A stretch of DNA of 64,000 nucleotides from Diacronema lutheri (taxonomy: Eukaryota > Haptophyta > Pavlovophyceae > Pavlovales > Pavlovaceae): contig JAGTXO010000004.1 in NCBI GenBank assembly GCA_019448385.1, forward strand, positions 930,001-994,000, read 5' to 3'. The notes under the pieces are model-generated. The model was not told the DNA's origin. It saw only the letters and a program-made list of their open reading frames with translations, and searched no databases. Below, piece after piece: positions 1-26,821 of the stretch. Position 1 is the first letter of the stretch. Every line of letters starts with the position of its first letter. The translations under genes were made by a program, and so were the position numbers.

Positions 1-1
1 C

Positions 2-2640: not shown

Positions 2641-2681
2641 CATTGAGCCTGGCGCACCAAAACGCAATCGGTCCGCCGATC

Positions 2682-2701
2682 GGGGGGGGGGGGGGGGGGG
2701 G
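2682..2701 (-). repeat. Poly-G tract (poly-C on the minus strand)
   Basis: A G20 run. By analogy with the SMC4 intron it may mark an intron of the minus-strand gene. Confidence 0.95.
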
Positions 2702-4069
2702 CGAGGCGTGCGCGGGGGCTTGGGGTGGGCTCCGGGTGCCGGCGCTGTGCCAGCGGCGGGCTTGGTTGACGCCGTCTCGCCGGGGCCCTTGCGCCTTGCG
2801 GCGCGAGCGTCGCGGAGGGGCGTCGGCTGCGCTGGCTCCGCGTCGGCGGTGGCGTGGGGCAGGCTCTTGTGGAGGGCGGAGCGCTCGCGCACGAGTCGGT
2901 TGCCAAGGCGGGCTGTCTGCGTGCCGTTGGGCTGCGCTTGGGCAGGTAGGACCTGCGGCCTCGGGGGCGGGCGGGTTTTCGTGTTGGGCCAGGCGGCAAC
3001 GCGCACCGGCCGTGTTCGCGGCCGGCAGGCGGACGTCCGCAGCGGGGCGGAGAATGCGGGTGAAGCGCTTGCACGGGCGCGGTTCGCACCTGGCGGCCAG
3101 GCGATCACGAACCGTTGGGTCGCCCGGCTGTTTGGTGGAGCCGAGGGCAGCAAGGATAGCGAGCTTGGCCGCCTCATCGGTGACGAGCGGCACTGTTGCC
3201 CAGCTCTGTACCTCGAAGCCCTGGATGTGCAGGCGTCGGGGAAGTTCCCGGCAGCGTCGCCTGCGTCCGTCGAGAGGCGGACCGAAGTCGCGCCCGTGCC
3301 CCCGTTGGCGACACCGAGCTCTCGCTCGTTCACACCGGCCCGCCGACGCGGGCGCGTGGTGCGCGCGCGTTGGGTGCGTGTCTGCCTCGAGCAGCGTGCC
3401 CAGTCGCAGTGTGGGCGCGTGTCCGTCTGCCTCAAAACGCCACGTGGAGGGGAAGGCGCGGGGCGGGCTCGCCGAGGAGGTGCCGCCGCTCGCTGCCACC
3501 CGGCGCGGGCTCGGGGCAGCCGTCTTCGGGTGCCGCGCTCTTCGCGCCATGCACGAACGTTCCGCCGCGCTCGCAGCGCGCGAGCGCACACACAGAGCGC
3601 GCGGCGACCCCGGCGGGGGCAGTGCGTCCCGGTGGCACTCGCGGGCGCGCGCCTGGCCTGGGCGCAGCTGGGCGCGTTGCCGCCCGCGCAGCGAGCCGCC
3701 CGCGCGCCTCGCCGCGCGCGCGCTTCGTCGCACGCGTGCGCCCTGCATGCACGCGCACAGCGCGCGGCGGCTCGGCGCAGTGCAAGGCAGAGCGTGCTGC
3801 AACGGTTGCGAGGGCGCGCACGCGCGGCGCGGCGCGCCCCTGTGTGGTCGCCTGCGCGCGGCGCGTGGTCCGGACGCAGCTCGGTGGCGTGATGCCGTTC
3901 GTGCAACACAGTGCGCGTGAGAGCCGCACGTGCACACCTGCAGTGCAACGCGGCATTGCGCGCGTTGCGTGGGCGGAGCGCGGCTGGATGTGCTTGAGGT
4001 CGCGCAGCATGCCGCGCGCCGCGCGCTGTGCGGCGCAGCGAGTCGGCCATGCCCCTGGTCCTCGTCTCC

Positions 4070-4089
4070 GGGGGGGGGGGGGGGGGGGG
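4070..4089 (-). repeat. Poly-G tract (poly-C on the minus strand)
   Basis: A G20 run followed by GGT triplets in the unresolved region; possibly intronic on the minus strand. Confidence 0.95.
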
Positions 4090-4608
4090 TGGTGGTGGCA
4101 ACCAGGATCCGCCAGCGCGTGGTGGGCGCCGTCCAACTCCCAGCCAGGATGCGCCCCGTTCTTCCCCGACACTCTCCGTCCAAACCCGCCGCCCAGCCTG
4201 CCGCCGCACCCGCCGCCAACGCCGCCGCGCACCCATCCGCCGAGCTCACCTCGCGCGCGCTCGCGCTCACGCTGCGCGACGAGGCTGCGCAGGCCGGCGC
4301 GCGGCCGTGCAGAGCAGCGCAGGCCGGCGCGCGGCCGCGCGCGCGCGCTCACGTTGCGGCCGCGCAGCGAGCTTTCGCCGCGTCGCAGCCCCTCCGAGCA
4401 GCCACGATGCACGCCCCCGGAGGACGTTGGCCGCGCTCGGAGGCCGCGCTCGGGCGCGCAAAGAGAGGCGGCGCGGGCAAACGAGTAGGCTCGGCGCGCT
4501 GGCGGGTCCTGGTTGTGGGAGAGCGGGGCATTCTCCAGGGCATCATGTAAATTCTCCCAAGTATCATCCGGGCCGCCATCCGGACACTGACGTGCCCACA
4601 GTCTGCAG

Positions 4609-7600
4609 ATGGAGGACTCCGTGAAGGACGCTTTGCCCGGCGGGCGGGGCGGCTCGGACAGTTTCTCGCTGGCCCTCAGCACCATTCTGTCGCCGGGAGA
4701 TACCCACCCCCACGTGGTCCCATCCACTTGCCTCATCGCCCTGCTGCGTTACGCGGATTTCGGCACGAGCAGGGTTAGGGTGGGCGACACGGGGTGCTCG
4801 CAGCATGCGCTCAAGGTGGCGCTGCGCAACCTGCGCAAAGCATGCGCGGATGCGGACCGGTTTGGGCAGGTGCTCGTGGTCGTGCTACCGCTCTGCCTCC
4901 GCGCGTCCAGCGGCCTCGTGCACTGGACGGCGGCGTACCTGCTCCTCGCGCCGCCCGCGCAGCGCGGCGCGCCGCCCGGCGCCGCGCTCGCCCTGCTCGC
5001 CGATTCGCGCACCTTGGGCAACGGCGAATCGGCGTACGCCACGGCGGCCGGCGTGCTCATCAAGAAGCTTGCGCAGCGCATCGGCAGAACAGCGCCGCCC
5101 ATCGATGCCTTCAAGGCGCCCCCGCAGAGTGGGGCCGCGTGTTGCTTCGCCGCGGCAACAGTCGCGGCCGAGGTCGTGGCGAGCGCATCGACGCTCTACG
5201 GCCGCCGCGCGAGTGTCCTTGTCGACATCAAGAAGGCTTTGGACGCGCGCCTCGCGCGCCTCACGACGGCCGCGTACGAGGAGACCCGCGCGCGCACGCT
5301 CCGCGCCGCCATCGGCGCTCTGCTCGGCGACCGCGCCAGGCGCTTCGGCCCGTTCACCCGCGAGGCCGCGCGGCTCGCCGAGGCCGCGCGGCTCGCCGAG
5401 GCGTGCGATGCCAGTGTCGGCGGATCCGCGCCCGACGGGCTGCTGCAGGCCGTCGAGGCGGCGCTGCGCGCGCCCGACGACCGCATCGCACGCACGGCCG
5501 CGCTCGACGCGCTCACGGGCGCTGCAGGCCGCGCGCTGTCGACGGCGGCCAGGCCGCGCGGCGCGGCGGCGCCAAGGCCGCCGTCGCGAGCGCCACCGCC
5601 GCGTGCGCCGCAGCGGCGCGCCGCCTCGGCGTGGGGGCCCCGACCATTCAGCAGCCTCGGCGGGGGCGAGGGCGACGGGGACGATGGCGACGCCACCACC
5701 GCTGACGACGGGGAGGGCGCGGAGGACGGGGACGACGACCCCGCGGGCGCGGCGGCTGCGGCGGTGGCGACGGGCACGGCGGCGACGAGCGCGGTGGCGG
5801 CGGGCGCGGCGCCAACCTCGCCGGCGGCGGCGGACGGCGGTGGCTCGGCGCCGCTCGAACGCCGCTGCGTCTACACTGCGCCTGATGAGGGCGACGCGGA
5901 CGCGCGCGTGTACGACGCCAAGGACCCCGAGCAGCTAAAAGCGGGCAGGGCGCGGCTACGGGCGAACAGCGGGCGCGCGCCCGCCGTGGTCGACACGCTT
6001 TTCGCGCACGCGACGGGCACGATCGTCACGCGGCAGCGCACGGAGGGCGTGACCGGCGCGGGCATGCACCACCTCGCCGCCCCGACGCAGGGCGCGGGGT
6101 ACGGTACCGTCGTGCGGGCCGAGCTGGGCGAGCCCGGCTTCGCGGGGACGACATGGCACATGACGTCGGGCGTGGAGAACCAGCCGCGCGCGGTACGAGC
6201 GGCCGCGCGCGCGTACGCGCACGACGGCTGGGGCGGCGTGTACAATGCGCACGAGGACTTTGCCGCCTTCGAGGGCTTGCCGCGGCTCGCCGCGCCCGAA
6301 TCGCTCGCGGCCATCGCCGGCGGGTCGGCGGACGCGGTGTTCTGCTGGCGGTCCGGCCGGTCCGTCATCGGCGAGGTGACGACGGTTCACTTCAATGGCG
6401 ACCGCGCCGCCGCCATCGACCACGCGCGGGCGCTGCGCGTCAGGCCCGATTGGCGCTCGCAGCCCAGGATCTACGAGGCGGCGTGCGGCGCGGAGGGCAC
6501 GGTGCTGCTCGTGTGGGTCGTGCCCGACCGTCACAAGAACCCGCGGCTGGACTGGGCGCCGATTCTCGTCGTGATCCACCTGCCCGCCGACCCCGACTGG
6601 CTCGCGCGCGCCACGCCGGCGATCGCGAAGGCGCGGCGCGAGGTCGAGGACGGACGCGCGCGCGCGGAGGCGCGCGGCGTGCCGCAGCACCTCGCCTACA
6701 CGCTGAGCCCACGCTTCCGAGGCACCGCGCCGCGCGGAGCCGCGCGCGTGCCGCCGCGCCTCGGCGCGAGCGACGCGCGCGAGGCGCGCGCGCTCGCGGC
6801 GCTCGAGCCGGCGCTCATGTTCGCGCCGGCCTGGCGGCGCGCGGTGCGCGCGGCGAGCCGCGCCCCCGGCAGTGGCGCCGCGGCCGTCGAGCGCGCGCTC
6901 GCGCGCCTGCACAACGCGCTCGAGCCCGATGACGAGAGCGCGCCCGAGTCGACGCGCGTCGCGCCGCTCGCCGCCGCGCTCGAGCAGTCGGCGGGCTGGC
7001 CGGCGGGCACGGCGCACATGGCGGCAAGCGTGACCAAGGGCCCCGGCGTCGGAGATGGCGCAGGTGGCGACGAAGTGACCAAAGTGGAGGAAACGGCGAA
7101 GACGAGCGGCGACGGCTGCACCGGCACGCCTCCTCTGCGCCCGGCCGCGCGCGCGGCCGGCGCGGCGGACGACGGAGGGGCGGCGGTCGTGGCGGGCGTC
7201 GAGGGCGAGCGCGACGCACTCGCCAAGACGGGTGCCGGCGGCTGCGACGACGACGCTCGCGAGCCGCTGTCGGCCGGCAAGCCCGGCGCACTCGCCGCCG
7301 CGGCGACCGTCGGGGGTCTCGGCGAGCTCGTCGGCAGCCTATGCGCGTGGCTGGCGCGCGGCGCGGCTGGCGGCGCCATCGCGGCCATCTCCCCCGGGAC
7401 GGCCGCGCGCGGAGCAAACGGCACGCCGCAGCGCGCCGAGCCGCCGGCCGCCGGCGATCCCGTCGCTCCGCACGCGCGCGTCGCCGCTGCGGCGCCCTTG
7501 GCGGGCAGCGCGGCGGCGCCGTCGTCGGCCGCGCGCGACGCGCAGCGCGGCGTCGCGGGATTCGACGCGGCCGCGCACGCGCACGCGCGCGACGGCAGGC

Positions 7601-10600
7601 GGGCGGCACGGCGGATGCGCGAGCAGGAGGGGGCGGTGCACAGGGCCTTCCGCATGTCCCTCTGGCGCGACGCGACGTTTGTCGAGTTCGTTGAGAAGCT
7701 GCGCCCCGACGGCGGCGCGCAGCTGCTCGCGCGCGAGCCCACGCGGCGCGCGGCGGCGGTGCTGTGCGAGCTCGCGCGCGGCCGCGACGGCGCGAGCGGC
7801 GCGGCCGGGCTGCTGCACGAGATGAGAGCCGCCGATGCGCGCGCGCGCGAGGCCGCCAAAGCGGCGGAGGAAGCGCAGCTTGCGCACGGGACGCTGCGCA
7901 TCGTGGCAACCGTGGCGCTGGGCGGTGCGGTCTTCGCCGGCATGTCAGCGCTGGTCGTTGCTTGCGCGGCGCGCACGGCGACCGGTGCGCTTTTTGGGGC
8001 CCGCCGCCCGCGGGCGGCCGCGCGCGGAGCCGACGACGCGCTCGGCACGCTGCAGCGCGCCAAGCCGCCGCCCGCCGACAAGGGCAAGCGCAGGCGCGCC
8101 AGAGCCAACGACGACCCCGTCGACGCGGCGCGCAAGGCCGTGGGCAAGGCGGAGGGCAACTGCCGCAAGGCAGCCCGCCGGCTGCACCTCGCTGCACTGG
8201 GCGAGGAGGAGGCGCAGCAGCGCGTGCTCGACGCCGAGGCGGCGGAGCAGCTGGCGCGCTCGCGCGAGCCGGCCGGCGGCTGGGTAGGCAGCGCGCGCGC
8301 GCGCGCGCGCGCGCGCCCCGCCGCGCGCGCGCCCGTCGATTGGCGTGCGCGCAGCGCAGAACGGCGCGCCAGCTCCGTCACCTGCGCGCCGCCGCGCCCG
8401 TGCCCCTCGCGCGCAGGGGCGCCCTGCGGACCTGCGGCTGCAACAGGCGCACTTTGGCATGCGCGAAGATGCCGACGCGGATGTGCGCCGCGCGCACGAG
8501 GCGCTGCGCCGGGCGAGACAGGGTGTGGCGTGCGCCAAGGCCAGCGTGCGGCAGATGGAGGCGGCGTTGCTCAACGCGACGCGCTGCGCCACCGCGGTGC
8601 TCGCGCCGCGTGGCGTGCCGGAGGGTGACGAGCAGGCCGCGGCGAGAGAGCAGGCGGCGCTGGACCGGGAGGCGCCGCCGGCCGCGCAACGCGCGGCGCC
8701 GACGGCGCGCTCGCCCTCGGAGCCGCCGTCCGAGTGGGGCCCGCCAGCGGTCGGCCGGCGCCCGACGCCGCGTGCACTGTCGCACGCCGCGGGTCGCGGG
8801 GACGACAACCCGTTTGCGCCGCTCGCAACCGTCAGCGGCGATTGGTCGCCCACGCCGAGCTCGCGCTCGCCGTCCTCGCCGCCGCGGCAGCCGCCGTCCG
8901 ACCGCCGCAGCGCGCAGCGTCGCAGCGCGCGCGCGCGGCCGCCGAGGCCGACCGTTTCGCCCGAGGACGCGCTCGCAGCCGAGCGCCAGGCGCGCGCGCT
9001 GTCGGAGCAGGCGGAGCAGAGGCGCGCCAAAAAGGCCGCCGCCAAGGCCGCGCGCCGCGCCGCGCGCGCCGCCGACAAGCGGACGGCGCGCGTCGTCCAC
9101 GCGTGCGTAAGCGCCGCCTTGCGGCGCGTCTGCACGAGCGTCGCCACGGGCACGCCGCTCGCCGTGCTCCGCGAGCGCGCCGAGGGGCCGCGCGCGCCGA
9201 AGCCCGCGCCCGCGCCGCCACGCCGCGCAGCGGACGGCGGCCGCGCGCTCCGCCACGCGCGCCGTGCGGCCGCCGCGGCGGCGGAGCGCGAGGCGGCGGT
9301 GGCGGCCGACGCCGACGAGCGGTTCGAGCGGCAGCCCTCCGCCGCCCGGTTCGACGGCGGCGATGGCGGCGGAGGCGGCCACGTCGAGGCGAGCGCGCGA
9401 CCGCGCGCCGGCGAGGCCGGCGAGGCTGGCGCGCACGGCGCGCCTGGCGCAGCGGGGACCCCGGCGGCGTCGCTCGCGTCGCGCAGCCCGTGTGATGCGC
9501 GCCGCACGGCACGCCTCCCGCACGCACGCGCCGCAGCCACCTGCGCACGCAACGGCGGCTGGGGTGGCAACGTCGGCGGCGACGTGTGCGGCGGTTGTTT
9601 CGGCGGCGGCGGCGTCCGTCGCGACGCCTGCGGCGGCGGCGACGCCACCTGCGGCTGCGGCGATGGCGGCGTCGGTGCTGGCGCTGGCGAGGCCCCTGCA
9701 CACGGTGCGCCGGCGCGCGCGACGGCGTCGCGCTTGCTGCGCTTGCTCGGCGCGCCACGCGCCGTGCTCGGTGCGATGGCGCACGCCGCGGCCGTGTTGG
9801 CGCGCGGCGTGGCCGCAGCCGTCGCTGGCGTGCGCGCCGCCGCGCGCGCCGTGCGGCGCGCGCGCCGCCGAGCGCCTCGCGCGCGCCGCACGGCTGCGCG
9901 GCGGGCTCGCGGCCCGCCGATGCGCGACGTCGACGGCGCCCTGCGGCCCTCGCCGTCCTGGTTGCGCACACGCCTCGTCTGCGGCCGGCGCCTCGCGCCT
10001 CTGCGCCGCGCGGGCGCGCGCCCGCCGCCCGCACACGCCGCGCCGAGTTCCCGCGCGCGCGCTGCGCAACCCGACAGCGACGCGCCGGCGTGCGCGCCGC
10101 GGCGCTCGGCGCCTGTCGGTGCGCCGCCGCGCGCGCGTGGCCTGCGCGCGGCGCGCGCACGGCGCTTCCTCGACGTCGCCGGCCGCGCGGCGCGGAGCGC
10201 GCGCCTCGGCGCGCGCATCACGCGCCAGCGCACGCCGGGTTCGCCATCGGAGCCCTGCACGGCCGAGAGCGGCGACGGCGCGGGCGCCGGCGGCGTCGGC
10301 GCGGCGGCGCCTGGCGCGGCGACGATGCGCGCCACCGGCGCGCGCGCAGCGCGCGCTGCGGCGGCGGCGGTCGGTGGCGCCTCGCGTCTCGCGCGCCGCG
10401 CGATGGCAAGCGCCGCCGCCGCTGCCACCTCCATCGCCGGCGCTGCCGCCTCCACCGTCGCCGCCGCCGCCGTTGCCATCGGCGCGGCCGTCACGTCACC
10501 GGCGTTCGCCGCGGCGCGCGGCATGGCGGCCGCATGCGTCGCTGCCTGCGCCCGCCCCACCGCCGCGCAGGCGGCCGCGTCGCGCGCGCTCGGCGCGCTC

Positions 10601-12867
10601 TTCGTGCTCGTCGACGCGGCCGACGCGGCGGGCGACAGCGACGCCGCGCTCGGCGCGCTCGCGGCCGCGGTCGACGCGACGGAGCTGCGCCCGCCGCCGG
10701 CCTTTTGGCGCGCGGGCCGCGCCGCGGCGTACGCACCGCGTCCGCCGCCCCTCGACTCGGCGCGGCCGCGCTACAACCGGCGCGCGCGCGCACCTAGCCC
10801 TCCCGTCGCGGCCGCGCGGCGCAATCTCGCGCGCGCGGTGCGCGAGCTCACGCGCGCCGCGCGCGCTGAGCGCGAGCGCGCGCCGGCGCCGCGCGGCGCG
10901 CGCGGCGGCGTGCTCCACGCGCTGCGCGCGTCGCTCCCCGTGCACGCGCGTGCCGCGCTCGGCACGGACGCGGAGCTGCGCGCGGACATCGCCGCGTTCG
11001 CGCGCGCGCGCCGCGAGCTGCACAGCCTCACCGACGCCGAGGTGGCGGCGCTCGCGCGCCCGGACGGGCCGCCGCTGCCCGTGCGGCTCGCGTGCACGGC
11101 GGTCGCGCGCGCGCGCGGCGTGACCGTGCTGCTCGACATCGTGCCGCGCGGCGGCGGCGCGCCCGAGCGGCTCGTGTGCCGCGCCCGTCGCCGCGGCGCC
11201 GCCACGCGCACGCCACGGCCGACAGCCGCCGTTATCGCGCGCGCGCCTTGCATAGCGGCGCGCGTTGGCCACACTGAGCCGGCGCGCGCGTGCGCGGGCG
11301 GATCGATCGGGGTCGCGCGCCTCCGTTCAGCGCGCCGCCGCTCTTGGCGTGGGGCGCGGCTCGACGTGCACACCCGCGAGCGGCTGGCCACACCGGTGCC
11401 AGGCCACGTCGTGGCCTGCGCCGCCGCCTCGGCCATCGGCGCGTGCGTCGCTCGCGCGCGGCTTGGGCTTGCACGGCTGGCGCGCGCGTGGCCCTGCGCC
11501 TCCGCTCCACTGGCCGCTGCTGCTGTCGCCTTCGCGCCTGCCGCCGACGGTGTTTTCTGCGCCCCGCTGGGCGCTCCTGCATCCGCCTTCGCGCCTGCCG
11601 CCGACGGTGTTTTCCCCGCCGCACTAGCCGCTGCTGCATCCGCCTTCGCGCCTGCCGCCGATTTTCCCGCCCCAGTAGTTGCTCCTGCATTCGCCTCCGC
11701 GCCTGCCACCGACGGCGTTTTCCCCGCCCCACTAGCCGCTGCCGCTGCCGCGTCCGCGCCCGCCGCCGCGGGCGCGTCTTCCGCCCCACCAGCCATCGCC
11801 GCCGCGCCCGCCGCCAACGCGCGCACCGCCAACGTGCCCGTTGCCAACGAGGCTACCGCCACCGAACCAGCCGCCCTTGAGCTTCCCCTCCAACCCGCCA
11901 ACTCGGCGCTGCTTGCGTGGGCGGGCGACGCGGCTGCGCGCCGGCTGGCCGCCGCCGCCGCGAGCGCCGGCCTCCCGCAGGCAGAGGTGGAGCGCATCGC
12001 CAGCGGCGACATGCTCGCCTCAACCGTCGACGCGTGCTGCGAGGTCGTGCTGCGCGTGCACGGGCAGGCCGGCGGCGGGCATGTCTGCCACGTGCCGCTC
12101 GCCGCGCAACCCGCGGTGTTTCAGGACGACGCCGAGCGCGCCGCGCTGCTGCACCGCCTGCGCAGCGAGGCGACAACGCAGGCTGTCATCGGCGTGTGGA
12201 GCCCGTCGGACGAGCGCGGCGGCGCGGGCGGTGACGACGGCGCGCAGCTCGCCTCCGGCCATTTCACCGCGTTGCGCCTTGTGCGCGTCGCGCGCGCGGG
12301 CGAGCATCGCTACGACGCGGTGCTCGTCGACACGCTCGCGTCGCCCTGCAGGCAGGCGCTCATGCTCGCCAAGGCGATAACTGCCACGCTGCACGCGGCG
12401 GGTCTCGACATTTCGCGCGTGCGCCGCGCGCTGCTGCTCAACGAGGCGGCGCAGCGTGGCGCGACGTGCGGCCTCGCGATAGTGGGCGCGCTCAACGACG
12501 CGCTCGCCGCGGCGGGCTGCTCGTCCGCGCCGCGCACGTTCAGCGTGGCGGACATGTACGCTGTCGGCGAGCGCCTCCGCGTCGTGCTGACCGGCGCGGC
12601 CAGCGATCGTGCGCCGGGCGGCGTCTGCGCGGTCACGAGCGCGGTGCGTGGCGGGGGCAGCCCCGATCGCGCCGAAACGCCGCCGCAGACGCGCGGCGCC
12701 AAGGCCGCCGCTGGCGTCACCGCCGCCGCCACCGCCGCCGCCACGCCGCCGCCGCCCGCGCTGGGCGCCGCCGCCGCCGCCACCGCCGCCGCCGCCGCTG
12801 CTGCCGCCGCCGTGGCCGCGCCGCCACCGCCGCCACCGCCGCCGCCGGCCGGCGACGCGGGCGACGA

Positions 12868-12937
<70 letters not shown>

Positions 12938-15900
12938 GCCGCGCGCACGTTCTTGAAGCTCGCGCCCAGGGCGCGCGCGGCCGCCTCGGCGCGTGAGGCG
13001 TTGCGCGCCGCGTGTGCGCGCGCGGACGCGGCGGCGTCGTCACACGCGTCGGCGCCGCACGCGCCCGCCGGTGCGCGCCGCCGGCGGCGCGCGGGCGCAG
13101 GCGAGCTGGCGCTCGCGGCTGCGCGCGCGCTCGCCTCGACGGAGCACGGCGATTTGACGGACGACGCGCTCGAGGCCGCCGTCGAGCAGGAGCTGGGCGA
13201 CGAGCGCGGCCAACTGCTGCTGTGCACGCGGGGCGCAGCGGCGCAAAGGCCCGCGCTTTGCCGGCTCCTGAAGCACGCGTGCGCGTCGGCGCGCGCGGCG
13301 AAGCGCGCGCAATTCACGGTGTTCGTCGTGCGCGCGCCCACGCGCGGCGAGCGGGGGGGCGCCGCCGCGAGGCGCGTGGACTCGGTGGTCGAGCTGTCGT
13401 GCGCGCTGCACGAGAAGGCGGGCGCGCTCGGCGGCCTCCAGCGCGTCTGTGTGCGTGGCTTCGCCCTCGAGCGCCGCCGGACACTCGACGCTGGCGCCGA
13501 GGCCGGCGCGTCCGCCATCGGCCAGGACGAGCAGGTCGAGGCAGAGGCGGGCGAGGCGTGCGTCGCCGGCGTGACGATGGCCAAGCAGCTGCGTCAGTTT
13601 GCCGAGCAAGCTGCCCGCGACGACGTGCTCTTCCACGTCGCCGTGTCCGAGGCCGACGCCCACGCCCGGCTGGCGCGCGTTGCGGGTGACGATGTCGGCG
13701 CGTACAGCGTCGTGCTCGCAGTCGCCGGGCTCGTCTGGCTGGCCAAGGCCGACGAGGTTGCGCCGGCGGCCGCCCAGCCCGCCGCCGTGCCGCCCGCCGC
13801 CCCGCCTGCTGCCGCCACGTCCGCCGACGCCGAGCGCGACGCCTCGCCTTCCGACCGCCTGAGCGCGCTGACGCTCGCCGTGCGAGTCGCGCTCGCGCGC
13901 GGCGTGCTGCGCCACCTCCTCGCCGACGCGTCGCCGGGCGCGTCCGCGACCGCTGGCGGTAGTTGCGCGACGCCCGTCGAGGCGGCCACGTCCGCCGCCG
14001 CGCCGCCCGCCACGGGCGTCGTGACGAGTGGCGTTGCGGCGGGCGCTGTGGCGGCCGCACCGGCTGCTGCGGGCGGTGCGATGGCGGGTGCATCGCCCAT
14101 CACGCGGCCGGCGAAGCGCGCGCGGCGCACGCTCACCGCCGCTCCAGCCGCCTCGGCCGTTGCGGCCGCTGGAGGCGCACGCGCGGGCGCACGCGGCGCG
14201 GCCGGCGCGCCTCGCGCGCGCGCCGCGCGCGCGCCGGCCGAGTACGTCTGGCTTGCCATCGCGCGCCGGATGCTGGCGGCGCGACACGCGGCGGCCGCGG
14301 GCGGCGACTTTGTCGCGTCGTGCGTCGCCGCGATGCAGGCCGAGTACGGCGACGGCTGTGCCGTCGTCGTCGGCGACGCGCCTGATGACGCCTTGGTCGA
14401 GGCTGCGGCGGCGGCGCTGCTCGAGGGCAAGCACGCGGCGGTGAGCTTCGGCTGCGTCGACCGGCCGGCGGTGCTCGTCGTGCAGCGCGCCGTGGACGCG
14501 CCCACGTCGCGCGTGCACGGGTGGTGCGCGCACGCGGCGGGCGCCGCCGAGTTTGACGAGGGCGCCGCGCACGGCGTGTTCAACGCGATCGTCGAGCGCG
14601 CGTGGGCGCTGCGTCCGGACCCGGCCGACGGCAGCCCGCCGCCCACGCGCACGTGGGAGGTCGAGCAAATCGCTGGCGACGCGCCCGACCAGGCGGGCGT
14701 GGCCGCGCTGCGCGTGCTCTACGCGCTCGTCGCGGCGCACGGCCGCTACCGCTCGGCCGCCGCGCTCTTTGGCGCGCTCGCGCAGCTGCACGCGCCCGAC
14801 GCCGCCGGCGCGCGCGCGGAGGTCGTCGCGGCGGCGTGCGCGGTGCCGCCCGGCGCGCGGCCGGGCGCCGCGCCGGCGGCCGCGCGGGACGACGCGAGGG
14901 AGCGCGCATGGGACGGCGCTCAGATCGCCGCGCTCGCCGTCGGCGGGGACGCTGCGCGCAGGCGTGTCGCGCCCGTGCGCGCGCTCGTCGACGCGCTCGG
15001 CACGCCACCGACCTCGGCGATCACGGGCGGGCCGGCGGTCCGGCTCGCGGGCGCGGGCGACGGCGGCCACGGTGCACGGTGGGTGGGCGGGCAGGCGGCG
15101 ACGCCCGCCGAGCAGCTGCCGAGGGAGCTGCTGCGCGCCTACCACGAGGCGGTGCTGTGCGTCACGCCCGGCAGCCTCCAGCTCGGCCCGGCGGCGCTCG
15201 ACGCGGTCACGCGGCCGCGCGAAAACGACACGCTGGAAGGCCTCCTCGCGCGCGTCAGCTGGCAGTGCGGCGCGAGGGCGAGCACGTGCGCCATGCTCGC
15301 CACGTTTTCCGAGCAGGCGGGCACCGGCTCGCGCGTCGCGCTCAAGGCCCTCCGCACGAGCTCCGACCTGGCCGGGCTGACGGCGGCTGCGGTCGGGCAG
15401 CAGGCGCCGCAGACGCCGCCGCCGCCGCTTCTCGTGATGCTCGGCCGCTGCCCCAGCCCGCTCGTCGGCGGCGGCCTCTTCCCGCCCGACCGCGCGACGG
15501 GCGAGCCGGCGGTGCACGCGGCGACGTCCGAGCTCGCCGTCGAGCTGCTGCGCGACGCGCGCGCGCTGGCCGGCACGGACGGGCGGCTCGTCGTGCTGTG
15601 CCTCGAGGCGTCCAACCCGCTCTGGTTCTGCCCCAAGGTGCGCGAGCTCGAGCTGCCGCGGACGCGGTCGGACGGCGTGCGCGCGTCCGGCTGCACCTGC
15701 CCTGCGACGTGCAGCGATGCGCGCGGCGCGGCGGGTGGCGCTGCCCGCGGCGCATCGACGCGGCCGGCGGCGCGCGCGATCAACAAGGCGGTGCTCGACC
15801 ACTTCGTCGCGCTTTTCGGCCGCGAGGGCTTCGCGACCTTTGAGTTTGCGGGCGGCGGCGAGGCGAGCTGGCTGTGCGACAGCGCGGCCGGCACGACGAC

Positions 15901-18900
15901 CGTCGCGGCGTGCGCGTCGCTGCCGCCGCGCATGGGCGATGGGCAGCTGGCCATCCGGCGGCACACGCTCGGCACGGGCGCCGACGCGCCGGCGCACGCC
16001 GTCGTCTCGCTCCGCGTCGCGCACGTGAGCCACGCCATCCGCCGCGCGGCGGACGACGGCGGCGCGCGCGCCGAGCGGATGGCGCGCGCCGCGCGCGCGT
16101 TCTGCGATGTGGCGGCCGCGCTGCGCGTCGACGCGATCCTGGCGGAGGTGCCCGAGGACCGCCCGACGGGCACGCCCTTCCTTGGCGGGCTGCTCAAATG
16201 TTGGGACAAACGCAACGGGAGCTGGACGGCGCCAGCCACGCTCGCGCTCGGAGACGTGCGCGAGGTGGCCAAGCGGACGGCCGACGCAGCGGCCGGCCGA
16301 GCGGACGAGGTCCCTGCGGCTGGCCGTCCGCAGGTCGCGGCGCGCGCGTGCGCTGGCGCGATTGGCGGCGGCGCGGGCGCGGCGGGCGCCTCGGACGCTG
16401 CGCCGCGTGCACTGGCGGGCGCGTCGGGTGCGCGCACGGACGGCGGCCCTGCCGACGCACCGCGCCAGCTGGAGAGCCGCTACGGCGAGGCGAGCAAGCT
16501 CGACCTACCCCAAGATTCCACTACGGGCCGCGTCCTCGACGCTCGCGAGGCCCAGGACCGCGCGCGCGTGCCTGCTGCGCCCGACGGCACAGCGCTGCGC
16601 CGCGTGCTCGACGCCGTCGGCGCGGGCGCGCCCGCGCAGCGCAGCCCGCGCTGGCACGACGAGCGATGGGAGGAGGTCACGGGCAGCAAGGTTGGCGACG
16701 TCGTGAACGACAACGCCGGCGTCGCGCACGAGACGCTCACCGACGAGTACGTGCACCGGCGGCGGCGCGAGGTGCGGACCAAGGCGACGACCGCGGGCAT
16801 CCTCGGCGAGGCCGTCGCGCTGCGCAAGCTGGCGGCCGCGTACGGCATCACCGTCGTGTGCAACCTGCCGATGATGCGTGCGGACCCGCACGACAAGAGC
16901 GCGCCGTTCGCCTTCTCGCCGGACGGGCTCGCCATCCTCCCCGAAAACAACGAGCAGGTCCTCGTCGAGGTGAAGACGCTCACCAAGGCGGGCGCCACGG
17001 CGCACGAGGACGGGCCGCCGCAGCCGCACCGCGATCAGCTGCAGCTCGGCATGCACGTCCTCGGCGTGAGCAAAGCGCTCTACGTGCAGTACCTCAGGCA
17101 CGAGGACCGGATCGTCGTGCACGTCGTGACGCGCGGCGCCGGCTGGCTTGCATTCGCGCAGCCGAGGGTGCAGGCCTTCTGGGCGCGCGTCGTCGAGCGG
17201 CGCGCGCGGCTCGAGCGCGCGCGCGCCGACCACCCGGCTGCGAGCCGGCGGCACCGGCGGCAGCAGACGCCGGCCGGGCCGCCGCTCGTGCTCGCGCTGG
17301 ACGGGCGCATCCCCGCCGCGCGCGCCGCCGCGCTGCACGCCGTCGCGCACGGCACCGCGAGCGCGGCGGCGGTGACGGCGGCGGCGGCGACGGGCGACGC
17401 GACGGCGTTGCAAGACGCGATCGCGGCGCTGCGCGCGCCCGTCGGCAATGCGGCGATCGACAGCGCAGCGCGTGCGGAGCGCGCGGCCGTCGAGCGGGCG
17501 ATCGCGTACCTCGGGCAGCCGGCAGGCGACGCCGCCGCCCGCGGCACGGCCGAGGCGGCCGAGGAGGAGAGGACGGTCGACGCCGACATCTGCGCGTTGC
17601 TGCACCAGCTCGGCGCGAGCGTGGCGCACGTGCACGTCGAGGACGCGGATTGCGTCACGCGTGAGCACTGGGGCGGGGCGGTGCTCGCTGCAGCGGGCGA
17701 CCCGTCGAGCGCCCCCGCCATTTCGAGCGTCATCGTCGCGCACATCGTGCGCCTCGCCGGCTTTGGCGTCGAGCTCCCGCAGTCGATTCGCGTCGCCCCC
17801 AGCACGGCCGACTGGCACGAGGGCTGGCTCGACGTGCAGTGCGTGCTGCTGCGCACGCGCCGGCGCGGGCGGCGCGACGACGACTTTGTGGCCGTCGTCA
17901 GGCGCGGTGGGCGCTGGTTTGCGTGCGAGCCCGGCCGCGCGCGGCGGCTGCAGTGGCGGTCGGTCCTGCGCCGCGCGCGCGGCGGCGTCGACGGGACCGG
18001 CGAGGAGGCGTTCGCGGTCGTCTACGTGCGGCGCGGCGACGCGGCCGGCGACGCGGCTGGCGACGCGCAGGCCGAACGGGCGCGCGGCGGGCGCGCGCGC
18101 AGGCGCACGCGCGGCGGCACGCGCAAGCGCAAGCGCGGCGCCTCCGCCGGGCTCGAGGCGGCCGCGCCCGCCGGCGCGCCGGCGGGCGCTGCTCACCGCC
18201 CGCCCGCCAGGCGTGCCACGGTCGCCGCGCGCACCACGCGCTCTGTGACCGACGCGCGGCACTCGGCGCCTGCCGCCACGGTTGCACCTGTCTTCGACTG
18301 GCGCGCCGGCCGCCCGCCCCCTGCCGCCGCCGCCGCCGCCAAGCGCGGCCAGGCGCTCGAGCCGGGGCAGTTCGCGCGGCCGCGTGGGCGCGCGCCATGG
18401 GGCAAGGTCTGGGACAGAGTCTCGGGTGCGTGGGCGGACAAGCCGACTGGTGCTGCCGTCGCCGCCGCGCCGCCGCCGCTGCCGCCCGCCGCCGCGCCGC
18501 CGCCCGCCGCCGCGCCGCCGCCCACCGCCGCGCCGCCGCCCGCCGCCGCGCCGCCGCCCGCCGTCGCGCCGCCGCCCGCCGCCGCGCCGCCGCCGCCGCC
18601 GCCACCGGCGGCGCTCGGCCGCCGGCAGCACGTCGGCGCGGGCGGCAGCGCGGCGGGCCGGCGGCTCGCGGCCATCGCACGGCGGCAGCGCGGCGTGCGC
18701 GCGCCGCCGCCCGCCGCGCGCTTCCTCGCCACGCTGCCGCCACCGCCACGCGACGGCCTCGCGCGCACGAGCAAGCAGGCGCGCGCGAGGCGCAACGCGG
18801 ACGGACGGCCGGCGCACGCGCGCGCGGCCAACGCGCGCGCCTTCTACCGCGGCGTGGAGCTCGGCGTGCACGCGACGCGCGCCATCGTCGACGCGCGCCA

Positions 18901-21900
18901 CGCCGACCTGCCGCAGGCCGTCTTCGTGGCGGAGGCGCGGGCGATCGTCGCGCGCTCCGCCGGCGGCGGCGCGCTGCTCGCGCCGGACGACGTGCGCGAC
19001 CTGTGCGACGCGCAGACGGACGCCGATCGCGCTGCGATCTGGGCGTCGGTGGGCGCGCACGAGGCGACGCGCATCTTCGCGCTCGTCACGCGCAACGCGA
19101 GCTTGGCGGGCGCGGCGCTGCTCGTGCTGCACACGCCGGCGGGCGCGCCGGCGCGCGCGCTCGGGCTCGTGGCGACGCGCTCGCGCGCGCCGTCGACGGG
19201 CGCGCCGCGCGACGCGCACAGGGCGCTGGTGCAGCGGTTGGACGTGCTGATGGACGCGATCGCCGCGGCGCGAGGCGCGTCGCCGCTCGAGCTCGAGCTC
19301 GCGCTCGCGCCCGAGCCGCAGAGCGCGTGCAACGCGCGTGCGGCCGCGCTGCTCTGCCTGCAGGCCGTCGCGGACGCGAGCGGCCGTCCCACCGCTGAGG
19401 ACGCGCTGGCCGCGCTCGACGACGCGCGCGGCATCGACCGGCACTGCCACGCCGTCCGGCAGCAGATCGAGGCGAAGCTCGCGTGGCGGCGCGCCGACGG
19501 CGCCGTCGGCGTTGACGGCGCCGACGGCGCGCCCGCGCTCGCGCCTGCCGCCGCACCGCCGGCGTGCGCGCCGGCGCACGCTGCCGGCGAGGCGGCGGTC
19601 GACCAGGCGATCGTCACGCGGGTGCGCGACGCGCTGCGCGCGTGGGCGACGACTGGCACCGCGCCCAGCGCGGCGGTGCTCGACGACGCCTGCGCCGCGT
19701 ACACGGCGCGCGCACGCGCGCGCAAGGACGCGCGCACGGCGCTGGGCCCGACGCGCGCGGCCGAGCTGCTCGCCGCGGCCGCGCGCGGCGGAGCCGACGG
19801 GGCGGATGCCGCGCGCGCGCTGCTCGGCGGCACGCCGCGCCTGCTCGTCGTGCTCCTCTGCGTGCCCGTCGCCGCGCCGTCCGGCGAGCCGCCGCGCCCG
19901 GTCGGGCTGCTCGTCGCCGACCGGCCGACGGACGACTCGCGCCCGGCCGCGCTCGTGCGCTACGACTTTGCGCCGCTCGACGCGGACGTGGCCGTCGCGG
20001 TCGGCGCGCATGCCGTCGCGCTGGCCAGTGCGATCTGGCCGCTGCTCGCGGCCGAGGGGGAGCCGCGGCCATCGCCCGTCGTGCGCTCGCAGCCGCGCGG
20101 CGGCGACGATGGCGCGCGTGCGCTCGCAACGTTCGCGTGCCTCGACGCGCTGATGACCGCCAGCGTCGGCGCGCACGGCCTCGCGGGCGGCGCGGGCATG
20201 CTGCCCGCGCTGGTCGCGCGAGGCGCCGCGGCCGCCCAGCGCGAGCGGCAGCTGCGCGCGGCCGCCGAGAGGCTGGGCGGCACGGTCGCTGGGTGGCCGG
20301 ACACGGGCGCGAGCGCGGCGGGCGCGAGCGTCGACGAGGAGGCGCGCACGTACGAGGTCGAGGCGGTCGTCGACGAGCGCCGCAAGGCGGGCAAGAAGGT
20401 GACGTTCCAGTTCCGGATCAGGTGGCGGGGCTACGACGAGAGCGCCGACACGTGGGAGCCTGAGGCCAACGTGAGCAGCGACCTCGTCGCCCAGTTCCGC
20501 AAGACGCGCGACGAGCAGAAGCGGCGCGCGGGCGTATCGGGCAGCGGCAGCGGCGGCGCGGGCGCGGCGTCGGCATTGGCGTCGGCGCCGCTTCGCGCGC
20601 ACGGCGAGTCGGGCGCCGCGGGCAAGCGCGCCGCGGCGGGTGCCGCCGCGAGCGCGCGCGACGCCGCGGGCGCGCGCGCGCCGAGCGTTCCCCGCGCGCG
20701 CGGCGTCGAGCGCGCGCGCGTGGACGAGCCCGCTGCGCCGAGCGCGCGCGCCGCCGGCGGCGCGACGGCGCGCACGCGCGGCAGCGTGCTCCCGGGCTTC
20801 GTGGTCAAGCGCTCGACGCTCAACGCGGGGCCGCAGGCGGTGACGGCGCAGCCCGGTGCGCGGAAGGAGCTGCGGCGCATCGCGGCGGCCGTGCACAGGC
20901 TCACGACACAGGCGTACCGCGTCATCAACAAGGTGGTGCGCGACGAGGCTGCGGTGGCGAGCGCGCAGGCCGTCGGCGCGGCGTCGGGCGGCCCGTCGAC
21001 CAGCGTGCACACGTCGACCACGATGGACAAGGGAACCGTCCGTGCGATCTTCTCGGCCATCGGCTGGCACAAGGACGAGAGCACGTACGGTGCAGCGCCC
21101 CGAGGCAAGCCCGCCGAGCAAGCCGCCGCGCAGACCAAGGCGGCGACGGCGCGCGCCGTCGGCGAGATGGCCGAGGGCGTCCAGCCCGTCTGCGCGGTGG
21201 GCCTCACGGAGATCCTCGAGGCGGAGGCGACGCAGGTGTCCACCGCGTGCCTGATGCACCCATCGCGCGTCGTGAACGGGCTGCTCCGCGACGTCGTCCG
21301 CGCGGCAGTCGAGCGCGACGAGGCGCTCGTCGCGCTGCCCGAGATGCAGCGAAACGCGCGCGTGCGCGAGCTGTGCGAGCGGCTGCTGCGCGGCGACGTG
21401 GAGGGCGCGCGCGTCGGCTGCCCCGCCGCGCTCGACCGCCACCTGCCCGACATGGTCCTCCACAAGATCGACTACAAGTGCACGCCCACGAAAAGGTGGA
21501 ACTACGACCGGCACACGACGCGCTACTTCCTCGTGCAGATCCGCACCCTGCAGCACGTGGCCGAGGGGCAGGCGCTGCTCTGCCGGCTCGCGCACATCCA
21601 CACGCAGCTGACCGGACGGCCGCCGCGGTACAATGTGGCGCCGCTGCGCACGCACAATGTGCGCGCGAGGCGTGGCTGCCGCTGCCGCCGCCGAGCGCCC
21701 AAGCGCGCGCGCCGCCGCCGTGCGCGCCGCCCCGCGGCCAGGTTGGTCACGCGCCCGCGCGCTCGCGCGCCGCGCGCTGCGCGCAGGTGCCGCGCAACGT
21801 GCGCCTCGCCGCGAGCGCCATCTGGGTGACGCTTTCGGATGACGAGCGCAAGGAGCTGCGCGCGCGGCTCAAGGCGCTGGACCTGCGCGACCACGATGGC

Positions 21901-23511
21901 GAGCCGATCAAGTGGACAGGCACAAACGGCAACACCCCGCCGATGTCGGACGTGCGCGTCAGGTACGCGGTCTTTGCGACGCGCTTCGACATCTCCAACC
22001 GCGTCTTCGACTACGCCGGGCGCGAGCGGCCGCCGGCCGATCTGCCGTGGCACGCGCGGCGCTCGTGGGTTGGCCTCGCGCCGCTGCCGCGCGTGCCGCT
22101 CCCGGGCCGGCAGCCCGTCAAGTCGGTGGTGACAGATGGCGTCGCCGTGCACGCCGTCGGGACCGTCCTCGTGCCGAAGGCGCAGGCGCCGGCCGGCGGC
22201 TCGGGCGTCCTGCACCGCTGGCGCCGGCCGGACGGGCGCATCGCCGTCGCGCTCGGCTCCGAGCTGCGGCGGGCGATCGACGTCGAGGCGGCGGTCGTCG
22301 TCGCGGCCGACCCGAACATGGGCAACATCACCACCTACTCTGCGCACGTCGGGCGGGCGGCCGTCTGGCGGCAGTTCACGCAGCGCGCGCGCGCGCGCGC
22401 CGCGGGCTTTGCGCGCGAGACGGCCAAGACCAACGCGGCGCGGCGGCGCGTGCGCAAGGACGGGCGCGGCGAGGAGTTCAGCGTGGAGGCGGACGAGGCG
22501 CGGCTTGGCGAGGCGCACAGCGCCAAGGTGCTCGGCGAGGGCGAGTTCCACGCCTTCCACCGCGAGAGCGCGCGGGTGCGCGAGCGCGCCGCCGAGCACG
22601 TGTACGACGCGCCGGCGCGCCGGAAGGAGCGCTGGCGGCGCGACAGCGGCGGGCGGTCCAACGCGGCGCGCGTCGCCGAGGCGCTCATCGCGGCGCACTG
22701 TGTCGACGGCGTGACGCGCGACCGGCTGCTCGTGTGCGTGGGCAAGTGGCTGCGCGACCACAAGGGCGCGCAGCCCAAGGGCGCGCCGCCCGCCTTCCAG
22801 GTGGGGCTGCTGCGCGAGCTGCGGCGGCGCGGCGTCGCGGCCGTCTTCGTGCCCGAGCCGTACACGTCGATGCACTGCTCGATGCCGCGGCTCGCCAAGG
22901 GCGGCAGGCTGCAGCGCTGCGGCGCGGAGCTCGCGCAGAACCCGCGCCTGCCCGTGGCAAAGGGCGGCACGCGCACGGTGCACGCGCTCGTCATCTGCCC
23001 GGCGTGCAACGGCGGCAAGAAGCCCGTGCACCGCGACTACAACGCCGCGCGCAACATCTTCTACGACGTGCACGACATGGCGGCGCACGCGGCCGGGCGC
23101 GACACCACGTCGACGCCTGAGCGCTTTGCCCTCGTGCTCGCCTGGTGGGCGCGCGGCGAGGTGTGGGAGCGTGAGGAGCGCATGGTGCACGGCGAGGGCG
23201 ACGACTGCGACGACGAGTGCGACGGCGACGACGAGGGCGACGACGAGGGCGACGACGACGACGACGACGATGGCAGCGGCGACGGCGGCGGCGGCGAGGG
23301 CGACGGCGACGGCGACGGCGACGGAGGCGGCGGCGGCGACGACGACGATGACGGCGGGGGAGGCGGCGGCGGCGACGGCGGTGGCGACGACGGCGGCGGG
23401 CGCGGCGGCGGTGGCGGCGGCGGCTCTCGCGCCCGCACCCCCGCCCGCGGAGCTGCCAGCGCCAGTGCCGGCGGCGGCAGCGCGCGCGGGCCGAAGCGCG
23501 GCCGGCGTTGA
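4609..23511 (+). CDS. Giant multidomain protein: Ulp1-like protease modules, YqaJ nuclease, chromodomain and Fanzor nuclease
   Basis: Three exons are inferred: 4609-8283, 8417-21658 and 21787-23511, both joins phase 0, giving about 6,213 residues. Order of parts: Ulp1-like module (about residues 35-195); Ala/Asp-rich linker; possible PD-(D/E)XK remnant; a hydrophobic segment near 7900-7980; long Arg/Ala-rich coiled regions; second Ulp1-like module (Cys 2576); Ala and Pro runs; several degenerate papain-like segments; YqaJ-like nuclease (about 3965-4130); Josephin-like remnant; Pro-rich repeat; chromodomain (about 5204-5260); Fanzor (about 5370-6100); acidic Asp/Gly tail ending in a basic patch. 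Composition is extreme in Ala, Arg and Gly. The start Met is preceded by CTGCAG, so 4609 could instead be an exon start. No DDE transposase or reverse transcriptase was seen. Whether it is an active mobile element or a host gene is not decided by the sequence. Confidence 0.7.
4708..5193 (+). other. Ulp1/C48-like cysteine protease module 1
   Basis: Residues about 34-195 show the Ulp1 order of catalytic elements: VHWTAAYLLL with His105, ALLADSRT with Asp132, Gln173 in PPQSGAACC, and Cys178 or Cys179, followed by a small-residue helix. In C48 enzymes this His-Asp-Gln-Cys set cleaves SUMO or related ubiquitin-like tags. Overall similarity is weak, so the fold is inferred from motif order and spacing. 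Confidence 0.55.
8284..8416 (+). other. Intron 1 of the giant gene
   Basis: GTAGGC donor at 8284 and GCGCAG acceptor ending at 8416, 133 nt, phase 0. It joins ...EPAGGW to GRPADLRLQQAH and explains the switch between two long overlapping open frames. It contains an alternating CG run (about 8290-8318). Confidence 0.6.
11520..11745 (+). repeat. Imperfect tandem repeat of about 57-63 nt
   Basis: Four to five copies of a unit beginning gccttcgcgcctgccgccga encode AFAPAADGVF-type peptide repeats in the giant protein. Copies differ by substitutions and one shortened unit. Confidence 0.75.
11920..12590 (+). other. Ulp1/C48-like cysteine protease module 2, catalytic set intact
   Basis: GHFTALRL supplies the His (12260-12262), YDAVLVDTL the Asp (about 12329), and NEAAQRGATCGLAIV the Gln (12452-12454) and nucleophile Cys (12467-12469). 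The CG dipeptide and the spacing are typical of C48 proteases and clearer than in module 1. The module sits after an imperfect 57-63 nt tandem repeat. Confidence 0.6.
12715..12945 (+). repeat. GCC/CCG triplet repeats coding for Ala and Pro runs
   Basis: Nearly pure GCC triplets (about 12866-12935) give an uninterrupted run of about 22 Ala; a Pro run precedes it. The frame is preserved throughout. Confidence 0.9.
16620..17130 (+). other. YqaJ/lambda-exonuclease-like PD-(D/E)XK nuclease domain
   Basis: AQRSPRWHDERWEEVTGSKV resembles the N-terminal QgSpeW...R...iTaS signature of YqaJ nucleases. FSPDGLA gives the active-site Asp (16922-16924). VLVEVKT gives Glu (16967-16969) and Lys (16973-16975). 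HRDQLQLGMHVLGVSKAL matches the downstream Gln-containing helix. The full D-ExK set is present, so activity on DNA ends is plausible. Such domains are common in phages, large DNA viruses and some large transposons (family knowledge). Confidence 0.75.
17570..18050 (+). other. Possible Josephin/USP-like remnant lacking the catalytic His
   Basis: The stretch DDFVAVVRRGGRWFACEPG, followed by EEAFAVVYVRRG, looks like the His-containing strand pair and closing strand of papain-like deubiquitinases, but Asp replaces the expected His. This is a pattern judgement only. Confidence 0.25.
18475..18605 (+). repeat. 18-nt tandem repeat coding for Pro/Ala-rich hexapeptide
   Basis: About six units of gccgccgcgccgccgccc encode repeats of the type AAAPPP with single substitutions (Thr, Val) between the Josephin-like remnant and later segments of the giant protein. 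Confidence 0.85.
20341..20520 (+). other. Chromodomain
   Basis: YEVEAVVDERRKAG then FRIRWRGYDESADTWEPEAN matches the chromodomain core: E-Y-V-V-E-x-I, the YxVKWKGY strand and the TWEP strand, then a C-terminal helix DLVAQFRKTRDE. The aromatic-cage positions (Tyr at 20351, Trp in IRW, Tyr in RGY) are kept, so binding to a methylated histone tail is plausible. It lies about 110 residues before the Fanzor helices in one open frame. Confidence 0.88.
20850..23130 (+). other. Fanzor (eukaryotic TnpB-like RuvC nuclease) domain
   Basis: After the helical N-terminal part (RKELRRIAAAVHRLTTQAYR) and intron 2 come the three RuvC elements. These are AADPNMGN with Asp at 22309-22311, VFVPEPYTSMHC with Glu at 22855-22857, and HRDYNAARNIF with Asp at 23035-23037. 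Between the last two lies a zinc-ribbon-like set (MHC, QRCG, CPAC). Fanzors are RNA-guided endonucleases of eukaryotes and large DNA viruses (established knowledge). All three acidic residues are kept. A guide-RNA gene, normally adjacent, was not identified. Confidence 0.88.
21659..21786 (+). other. Intron 2 of the giant gene, inside the Fanzor domain
   Basis: GTGCGC donor at 21659 and GCGCAG acceptor ending at 21786, 128 nt, phase 0. It joins ...APLRTHN to VPRNVRLAAS, linking the N-terminal helical part of the Fanzor to its RuvC part. Donor and length match the SMC4 introns. Confidence 0.72.
23200..23511 (+). repeat. GAC/GGC-rich triplet region coding for acidic Asp/Gly tail
   Basis: Repeated GAC and GGC codons give an Asp/Gly tail of about 80 residues after the Fanzor domain, ending in an Arg/Lys-rich patch (GPKRGRR) that could act as a nuclear localisation signal. 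Confidence 0.8.
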
Positions 23512-23961
23512 CGCACGGCCGAGCCGCGCAGCGGTCGACGCTTTGCGGGCTCTGCCCAGGTCGCGCGCGGCTGGCGACGCGTGCCGCGCGCGGCACGACC
23601 GTGCACGCCGCCACCCGTGGCCGAGCGCGCCGCACCAGCCGGCCCGCTCCAACCGCCGTGCGGATCACGGACGCTCGCTACGGCTCGTCGGCGCGCGTCA
23701 CCTGCGCCGGCGGCCACGGCGCCGTCTGCTCCGGCCTCGTCGCGAGCAGCCCGACCGCTGCTCGCCGCCCGCACGCCGCCGCAGCAACGCTGCGCGTCGT
23801 GCTCCCCCGCTCGCCAAACGCGAAGAGCTCCCTCACAAGGACGTCCTTCCGAACGGCCCGCGCTGCACTCGGGGCGCGATCGTGCCCCTGATCGGATTTG
23901 GCTTGACCATCTATACGTGAAGACTGCGATTCGGTGAGGCTCTCTCCAGGTCGGACGTCCG
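23512..23961. other. Intergenic spacer downstream of the giant gene
   Basis: 450 nt with no recognisable gene, RNA or repeat. If a Fanzor guide RNA exists, this stretch and the 3' end of the coding region are the places to look, but no structure was recognised by eye. Confidence 0.4.
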
Positions 23962-26726: not shown

Positions 26727-26821
26727 CCTGCGAGCCGGATTTTGAAACGCGGCGGAGGGCGCGGTGAGCTCGGCGGTCGGCGGCGCGCGCCGCGAGCCGG
26801 CGGCGCAGTGCGCGCGGGGAG
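26727..26821. promoter_or_regulatory. Short divergent spacer, likely bidirectional promoter
   Basis: Only 95 nt separate the start codons of the FKBP and SNARE genes on opposite strands. No TATA box is visible. Shared promoter function is inferred from the geometry. Confidence 0.4.

Follow-up and report, generated by a model that had tools for sequence, protein, structure and literature searches.

The stretch of DNA analysed here (the window, 64,000 nt of the genome of the haptophyte alga Diacronema lutheri; negative coordinates lie to its left) opens inside a giant mobile element, a repeated sequence of about 31 kb. This element carries a long plus-strand gene whose 3′ end, taken as a whole, very probably encodes in order a RecE-type exonuclease, a chromodomain and a Fanzor1-type nuclease, an anatomy that we read from profile matches, motifs and codon-position composition (Table 1). 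An earlier note on this DNA had drawn attention to the last two domains, which it described as a chromodomain fused to an RNA-guided Fanzor nuclease. The assembly of strain NIVA-4/92 contains 73.25% guanine plus cytosine (GC). In the genome paper, as excerpted, long terminal repeat (LTR) elements and long interspersed nuclear elements are the main annotated repeats, and the string 'transpos' is absent from the main text (PMC8379373).

The chromodomain scores 49.1 bits against the Pfam Chromo profile (E 5.2e-13; cut-off 25.1), and its best relatives in the PDB are the chromodomains of CDYL (E 5.6e-11), CDY1 and HP1 (E 5.4e-9). Aromatic residues (Y20351, W20423 and Y20432) occupy the three positions of the aromatic cage, as assigned by comparison with HP1. 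The earlier note had described a clear chromodomain with such a cage and had named the lack of a profile match as the finding that would speak against it; both the domain and its cage are borne out. In-frame methionines at 20153 and 20198 are the first since 19250, and the next occurs at 21023, so that the long methionine-free stretch pointed out previously is indeed present between 20198 and 21023. The chromodomain lies directly ahead of the Fanzor in one open frame, and there is no start codon between them.

The nuclease is identified chiefly by its C-terminal half, which matches the TnpB/Cas12f-type domain PF07282 at 28.4 bits (E 1.9e-6; cut-off 26.3). Three RuvC acidic residues (D22309, E22855 and D23035) and four zinc-finger cysteines (22876, 22918, 22996 and 23005) are in place, in agreement with the previous proposal of a Fanzor with a complete acidic triad. 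Fanzor1 proteins have been described, in the excerpted text, by the motif D-X(125,275)-[TS][TS]xx-C4 zinc finger-X(5,50)-RD (PMC3627910). The corresponding order here is D22309, 184 residues, TS at 22864, the C4 finger, 8 residues and RD at 23032. Excerpts from a further study assign to Fanzor1 an alternative RuvC2 glutamate, a TDG in the WED domain and, 'near exclusively', a DPG in RuvC1 (PMC10711439). By motif, the window protein has the alternative glutamate (E22855, within EPYTS just ahead of the zinc finger) and the WED-type TDG (22132-22140).

The two domains do not share a single frame to the stop codon. Chromodomain and Fanzor N-terminus are read in frame 2, which is open from 8288 to 21829 (4,513 codons), and the RuvC half is read in frame 1 (open reading frame, ORF, 20464-23511). 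On this point the fusion as first described has to be amended: the direct succession of chromodomain and Fanzor stands, as does its recurrence in 111 of the 146 copies listed, and the one uninterrupted frame does not. The chromodomain and the RuvC half are joined only if 21659-21786 is an intron. GC content by codon position switches frame at about 8200-8290 and again at about 21650-21690. By comparison, random sequences matched in dinucleotide content (40 of them, each 27 kb long) contained open runs of at most 1,199 codons. Between 8288 and 21658, GC content peaks at third positions in 80 of 87 overlapping windows of 450 nt; the exceptions are 9488-10087, 11138-12037 (tandem repeats) and a near-tie at 16238. 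If translated from ATG 4609, the predicted product may comprise about 6,200 amino acids. The exonuclease domain within it, besides its PHROG match, falls below the cut-offs of TIGR03033 (E 1.8e-6, 28.1 bits vs 68.05) and Pfam YqaJ (21.9 bits vs 22).

Table 1. Features of the element and of its long gene, in window coordinates.
Feature	Position	Strand	Basis or remarks
Giant mobile element, part inside the window	1..23916	+	Whole copy G000:C75:922890-953916, 31,027 bp, window -7110 to 23916
Ubiquitin carboxyl-terminal hydrolase domain	467..733	+	Pfam PF00443, E 2.6e-8
Predicted exon 1 (frame 1), ATG 4609	4609..8283	+	ORF 4591-8628; third positions most GC-rich in 22/22 windows
Cysteine-protease-like stretch (H4921, D5002, C5140/C5143)	start of predicted exon 1	+	Motif by eye only
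Predicted intron 1	8284..8359	+	GT donor 8284; acceptor ambiguous (8359, 8416 or 8446 keep phase); GC-plot frame change
Predicted exon 2 (frame 2, about 4,433 codons)	8360..21658	+	Open frame 8288-21829
Cysteine-protease-like stretch (H12260, D12329, C12467)	11918..12544	+	Motif by eye only
RecE/YqaJ-type (lambda-exonuclease family) nuclease domain	16631..17197	+	PHROG 434 RecE-like, E 5e-17
Chromodomain	20345..20518	+	Pfam PF00385, stretch 20351-20503
Ala/Arg-rich linker, 90 codons, no Met	20519..20788	+	Open in the chromodomain frame
Putative Fanzor N-terminal part	20789..21658	+	Position and length
Predicted intron 2, 128 nt, GT-AG, phase 0	21659..21786	+	Frame shift at the site
Predicted exon 3: Fanzor C-terminal part, acidic Gly-rich tail	21787..23511	+	Third positions most GC-rich in 9/9 windows; stop 23509-23511
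3′ end of element past the stop; candidate guide-RNA region (a guess)	23512..23916	+	Right end common to the copies read

The pairing of the two domains recurs across the genome, of which 43,492,796 bases in 103 contigs were searched; all counts are lower bounds. With the window Fanzor as query, the best 76 of 457 candidates were scored, all at 100% (rounded) and one with a stop. The matches from a search for the Fanzor family (best 150 of 306 candidates) were sorted by score into 117 of the element type and 33 others, and those from a search for chromodomains (best 150 of 260) into 146 of the element type and 4 others. Of the 33 other Fanzor matches, 2 are under the Pfam cut-off, and scores vary slightly for a few members of the group of 117. 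Partners for the chromodomains were taken from the family-search matches together with 33 places from the Fanzor query. A Fanzor match follows 111 of the 146 element-type chromodomains downstream on the same strand, at a spacing constant to about 21 nt, and the other 35, some of them at contig ends, have no partner among the matches listed. Conversely, a chromodomain lies upstream of 90 of the 117 element-type Fanzor matches and within 6 kb of none of the 33 others, again among the matches listed. The frames that hold the 146 chromodomains reach at least 4,000 amino acids in 102 cases and fall below 1,000 in 8. A subfamily copy of 97.5% identity retains chromodomain, linker and predicted intron.

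The remaining Fanzor matches include a second family with at least 13 equal-scoring members (e.g. C1:154701, C9:378667, C69:650235 and C85:60775), whose frames extend to as many as 1,779 amino acids and which have no chromodomain within 6 kb among the matches listed. In one other-family Fanzor, 500 codons read about 1.4 kb ahead of the domain gave no Pfam match up to E 1, and the N-terminus of one other family showed no similarity to the window Fanzor by BLASTP. Elsewhere, at C69:981566-982417 and away from the listed Fanzors, two Pfam chromodomains separated by about 550 nt occupy frames of 1,421 amino acids each.

The limits of the element were set by comparing copies. Its left end, placed by comparison of two copies, leaves 7,110 bp of the element outside the window, and at the right end 29 of 29 other copies, fetched by their Fanzor match, follow the window to 23916-23920 and then diverge. 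The termini are TATATACGG on the left, with which 8 of 8 copies read begin (6 of them fetched for matching that end), and CCATCTATAC on the right. Compared by eye as an inverted repeat, the termini agree at 7 of 9 positions, and a search of the 150-nt ends for exact inverted repeats of 7 to 12 nt common to both gave none. No target-site duplication was seen in two copies with both flanks, and an empty insertion site was looked for and not found. Nine left-right pairs, matched by eye among the matches listed, measure 12.7 to 31.1 kb, and four of them, the window copy included, measure 31.0-31.1 kb; one right end was taken from a contig start, and a rearranged copy on contig C9 was left out of the pairs.

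The left flank of the window copy (window -7400 to -7107; L043:2600-2893) is the end of another high-copy repeat, which recurs at no fewer than 39 further places with an identity of at least 95%. The same junction between flank repeat and element occurs at C27:405629 and C57:80729 with 96-97% identity, for which a shared target, a nested insertion or a duplication are possible explanations. Inside the element, at window -5112 to -4242 (L043:4888-5758), there is a 378-nt inverted repeat with a 115-nt spacer, in the least GC-rich part of the element.

Besides the long gene, the element encodes separately a Pif1 helicase (E 1.8e-24), which lies inside the interval from window -3398 to -1341. No PolB, integrase or capsid gene was found in the ORFs given to Pfam, which are a subset of the frames, and no [FY]xDD-type motif occurs in element frames of at least 120 amino acids. 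Loose motif scans returned six HUH-like matches, two of them in long frames (7567 and 17621), and two recombinase-like ones, all of which we judged to be chance. The element may represent a new kind of giant eukaryotic transposon.

Ten contig ends, chosen because matches lay there (L051-L060; contigs C80, C83, C1, C5, C6, C10, C12, C3, C43 and C71), coincide with the right end of the element or lie within about 10 nt of it. A telomeric home was considered and is unlikely: TTAGGG adjoins none of these ten ends, and among the matches listed TTAGGG arrays start contigs C15 and C30. Since no TTAGGG stands beside the ten ends, breaks of the assembly at a long repeat are the likelier cause, and such breaks suggest that the true copy number is higher than counted. 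The element has been amplified recently, and its high copy number together with the near identity of its copies suggests recent activity. No relatives were confirmed in viral contigs, phages or genome contigs (333 pattern matches in the last); made up of viral, prokaryotic and phage sequences, these collections are hardly informative on other algae.

Variation was examined at 42 loci representing 34 copies compared with the window; L018, L043-L064 and L066 were excluded, L031-L033 with L015 count as one copy, and L038-L039 with L026 as another. Upstream of 20290 the comparison covers six copies, of which one begins at 17569. The copies differ from the window by 295 distinct coding substitutions (210 non-synonymous and 85 synonymous), none of which creates a stop; 300 random placements gave a mean of 4.0 stops, and none in 2% of cases. 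The Fanzor N-terminal part accounts for 25 non-synonymous and 8 synonymous changes and the C-terminal part for 32 and 17. Small exon insertions and deletions (indels) are -9 (L003), +6 (L034), -6 and -9 (L041) and +3 (L065), and L041 also has adjacent changes of +6, +4 and +2 at 11658-11665, within a tandem repeat. The predicted introns carry -4 at 8291 (L041) and +2 at 21702 in three copies (C71:180736, C2 and C4:197080). Opposite window 11502-11794, L041 (C42:98000-107999) has extra tandem repeats with a spacing of 450 nt, near 11.5-11.75 kb; the window has fewer of them, and its own frame signal is likewise lost in this stretch.

On balance, we favour reading the locus as the 3′ part of a single gene, predicted to encode a fused reader and nuclease, in a mobile element that is both giant (about 31 kb) and young. 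A number of observations weigh against this. The RuvC1 motif of the nuclease is DPN at 22309-22317, where DPG is usual, and we therefore call the protein Fanzor1-like, a variant. The NCBIfam TnpB profile gives 14.5 bits against a cut-off of 100. A phmmer search matched no solved Fanzor in a PDB set whose content of Fanzor chains was not checked; for the C-terminal part there were three PDB hits up to E 10, the best at E 0.19-0.2 and one of them Cas12f1 at E 0.2. No guide RNA was recognised in the 3′ region, for which Rfam returned one match far below its gathering score; the last 300 bases of the element fold slightly better than shuffles (z -1.46). Neither a transposase nor a Rep, tyrosine recombinase or reverse transcriptase was recognised among the ORFs given to Pfam, although introns could hide such a gene. 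The coding-frame signal breaks down at about 11.1-12.0 kb, so that the gene model is more secure downstream of about 11.8 kb, as far as the stop, than in its upstream connection to ATG 4609. Frames shorter than 4,000 amino acids hold 44 of the 146 listed chromodomains. Copy C2 lacks 4229-12772, and the copy at C9:427349 (L040, C9:424000-431000) is rearranged: 17566-20920 runs in the opposite orientation to the Fanzor part, and approximately 20921-21803 is missing. Finally, the ratio of non-synonymous to synonymous changes is 2.47 vs 2.69 at random (P 0.27), with 3 and 0 such changes in the chromodomain and 11 and 1 in the linker. Neither dN/dS nor pairwise comparison among the copies gave clear constraint or a signal of selection; the copies are too young for selection on amino acids to show.

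The alternatives turn on whether chromodomain and nuclease are carried by one polypeptide. The long protein might be cleaved by proteases of its own or of the element, which would place the two domains on separate fragments and leave the nuclease without a chromatin reader. The great length of the frame, the protease-like stretches in it, the ubiquitin-hydrolase domain in the element and the 90-codon Ala/Arg-rich linker would all suit such processing; however, neither stretch has Pfam or PDB support and there is no known cleavage site, and we regard cleavage as rather unlikely. An internal promoter that yields a stand-alone chromodomain-Fanzor protein is improbable. The methionines at 20153 and 20198 ahead of the chromodomain would provide its start, and the earlier note had let the gene begin at 20198. 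We reject 20198 as a visible gene start: the coding signal continues upstream of both and the frame in the window copy is open for nearly 12 kb upstream, back to 8288.

Slightly more doubtful still is that the Fanzor is transcribed separately from a first exon of its own, or that a splice falls within the linker, in which case the chromodomain would belong to the upstream protein only. The earlier note had named a separate first exon between 20520 and 20860 as the finding that would refute the fusion, and a start or splice there keeps some probability. The composition of the linker adds some weight to this idea and takes some from the fusion, as its GC content by codon position (0.84/0.84/0.93) is close to that of predicted intron 2 (0.81/0.91/0.88). 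The same is true of the Fanzor N-terminal part, which has no database match of its own that would fix its start. Yet the chromodomain frame stays open through the linker, which has no indel in the copies read, and the spacing between chromodomain and Fanzor is nearly constant in the 111 listed pairs.

If the fused reader and nuclease is made, the Fanzor would take up a guide RNA derived from the right terminus of the element and cleave sites where no element is present, a mode of action that has been discussed for TnpB and Fanzors in the excerpted literature (PMC10432273). The chromodomain would hold the nuclease on chromatin with methylated histones and so bias cutting towards one chromatin state, and the RecE-type exonuclease, with the separately encoded Pif1 helicase, could assist in copying the element into the break. 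We offer such a role in chromatin-guided cutting as a tentative proposal, drawn by analogy and less probable than the fusion itself. In its fullest form it would amount to a self-contained cut-resect-copy machine of an undescribed kind, without a conventional transposase, in which an RNA-guided nuclease, addressed through chromatin, opens sites without the element in a chosen chromatin state, the RecE-type exonuclease on that protein resects the breaks and Pif1 drives break-induced copying of 31 kb; this we consider improbable. Fanzors are a known cargo of mobile elements. If a methyl-histone reader is truly paired with a Fanzor here, it would provide a natural, ready-made test of chromatin-biased RNA-guided cutting, and the question is directly testable, as the host alga can be cultured and the element was apparently active recently.

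The chromodomains of chromoviruses and Polintons sit on integrases. The chromodomain-bearing proteins of LTR retrotransposons (PMC6338049, as excerpted) likewise place a histone-reader domain on a mobile-element protein; the partner in the window is instead a predicted RNA-guided RuvC nuclease. The window chromodomain resembles those of HP1 and CDYL in sequence and in its three cage aromatics and differs in residing in a mobile-element protein. Excerpts of two papers place Fanzor1 in eukaryotic transposons, including Helitrons (PMC3627910, PMC10432273). The window gene resembles these in encoding a TnpB-like RuvC nuclease with the Fanzor1 motif in a multi-copy algal element, and it adds a chromodomain ahead of the nuclease. 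Extra domains on Fanzors are already known, because PpFz1 of Parasitella parasitica binds cyclophilin through its Fanzor RuvC insertion (FRI) domain (PMC11423790, as excerpted). PpFz1 is thus a Fanzor1 whose extra domain contacts a host protein; that domain lies inside RuvC, whereas the chromodomain in the window precedes the nuclease. We found no fusion of a chromodomain to a Fanzor or TnpB in the literature searched, which was mostly open-access, partly in excerpt and without supplements, nor any combination of YqaJ, Ulp1, transposon and Pif1.

With Helitrons and Helitron2 the element has in common a Pif1-type helicase, a Fanzor passenger and the lack of a target-site duplication in the two copies inspected. 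Helitron1 ends in TC...CTRR and Helitron2 in asymmetric terminal inverted repeats, according to the excerpted source (PMC3627910). The window element differs in having neither a CTRR end nor an exact terminal inverted repeat of 7-12 nt, and no Rep among the ORFs given to Pfam.

To the right of the element end, an open frame at 23938-26085 encodes a nucleotide-diphospho-sugar transferase domain (E 1.2e-7). Beyond it, at 26103-27190, an FKBP-type isomerase on the minus strand (E 2e-14) overlaps a plus-strand open frame for a small SNARE-like protein, whose match (E 5.6e-6) is just under the Pfam cut-off.

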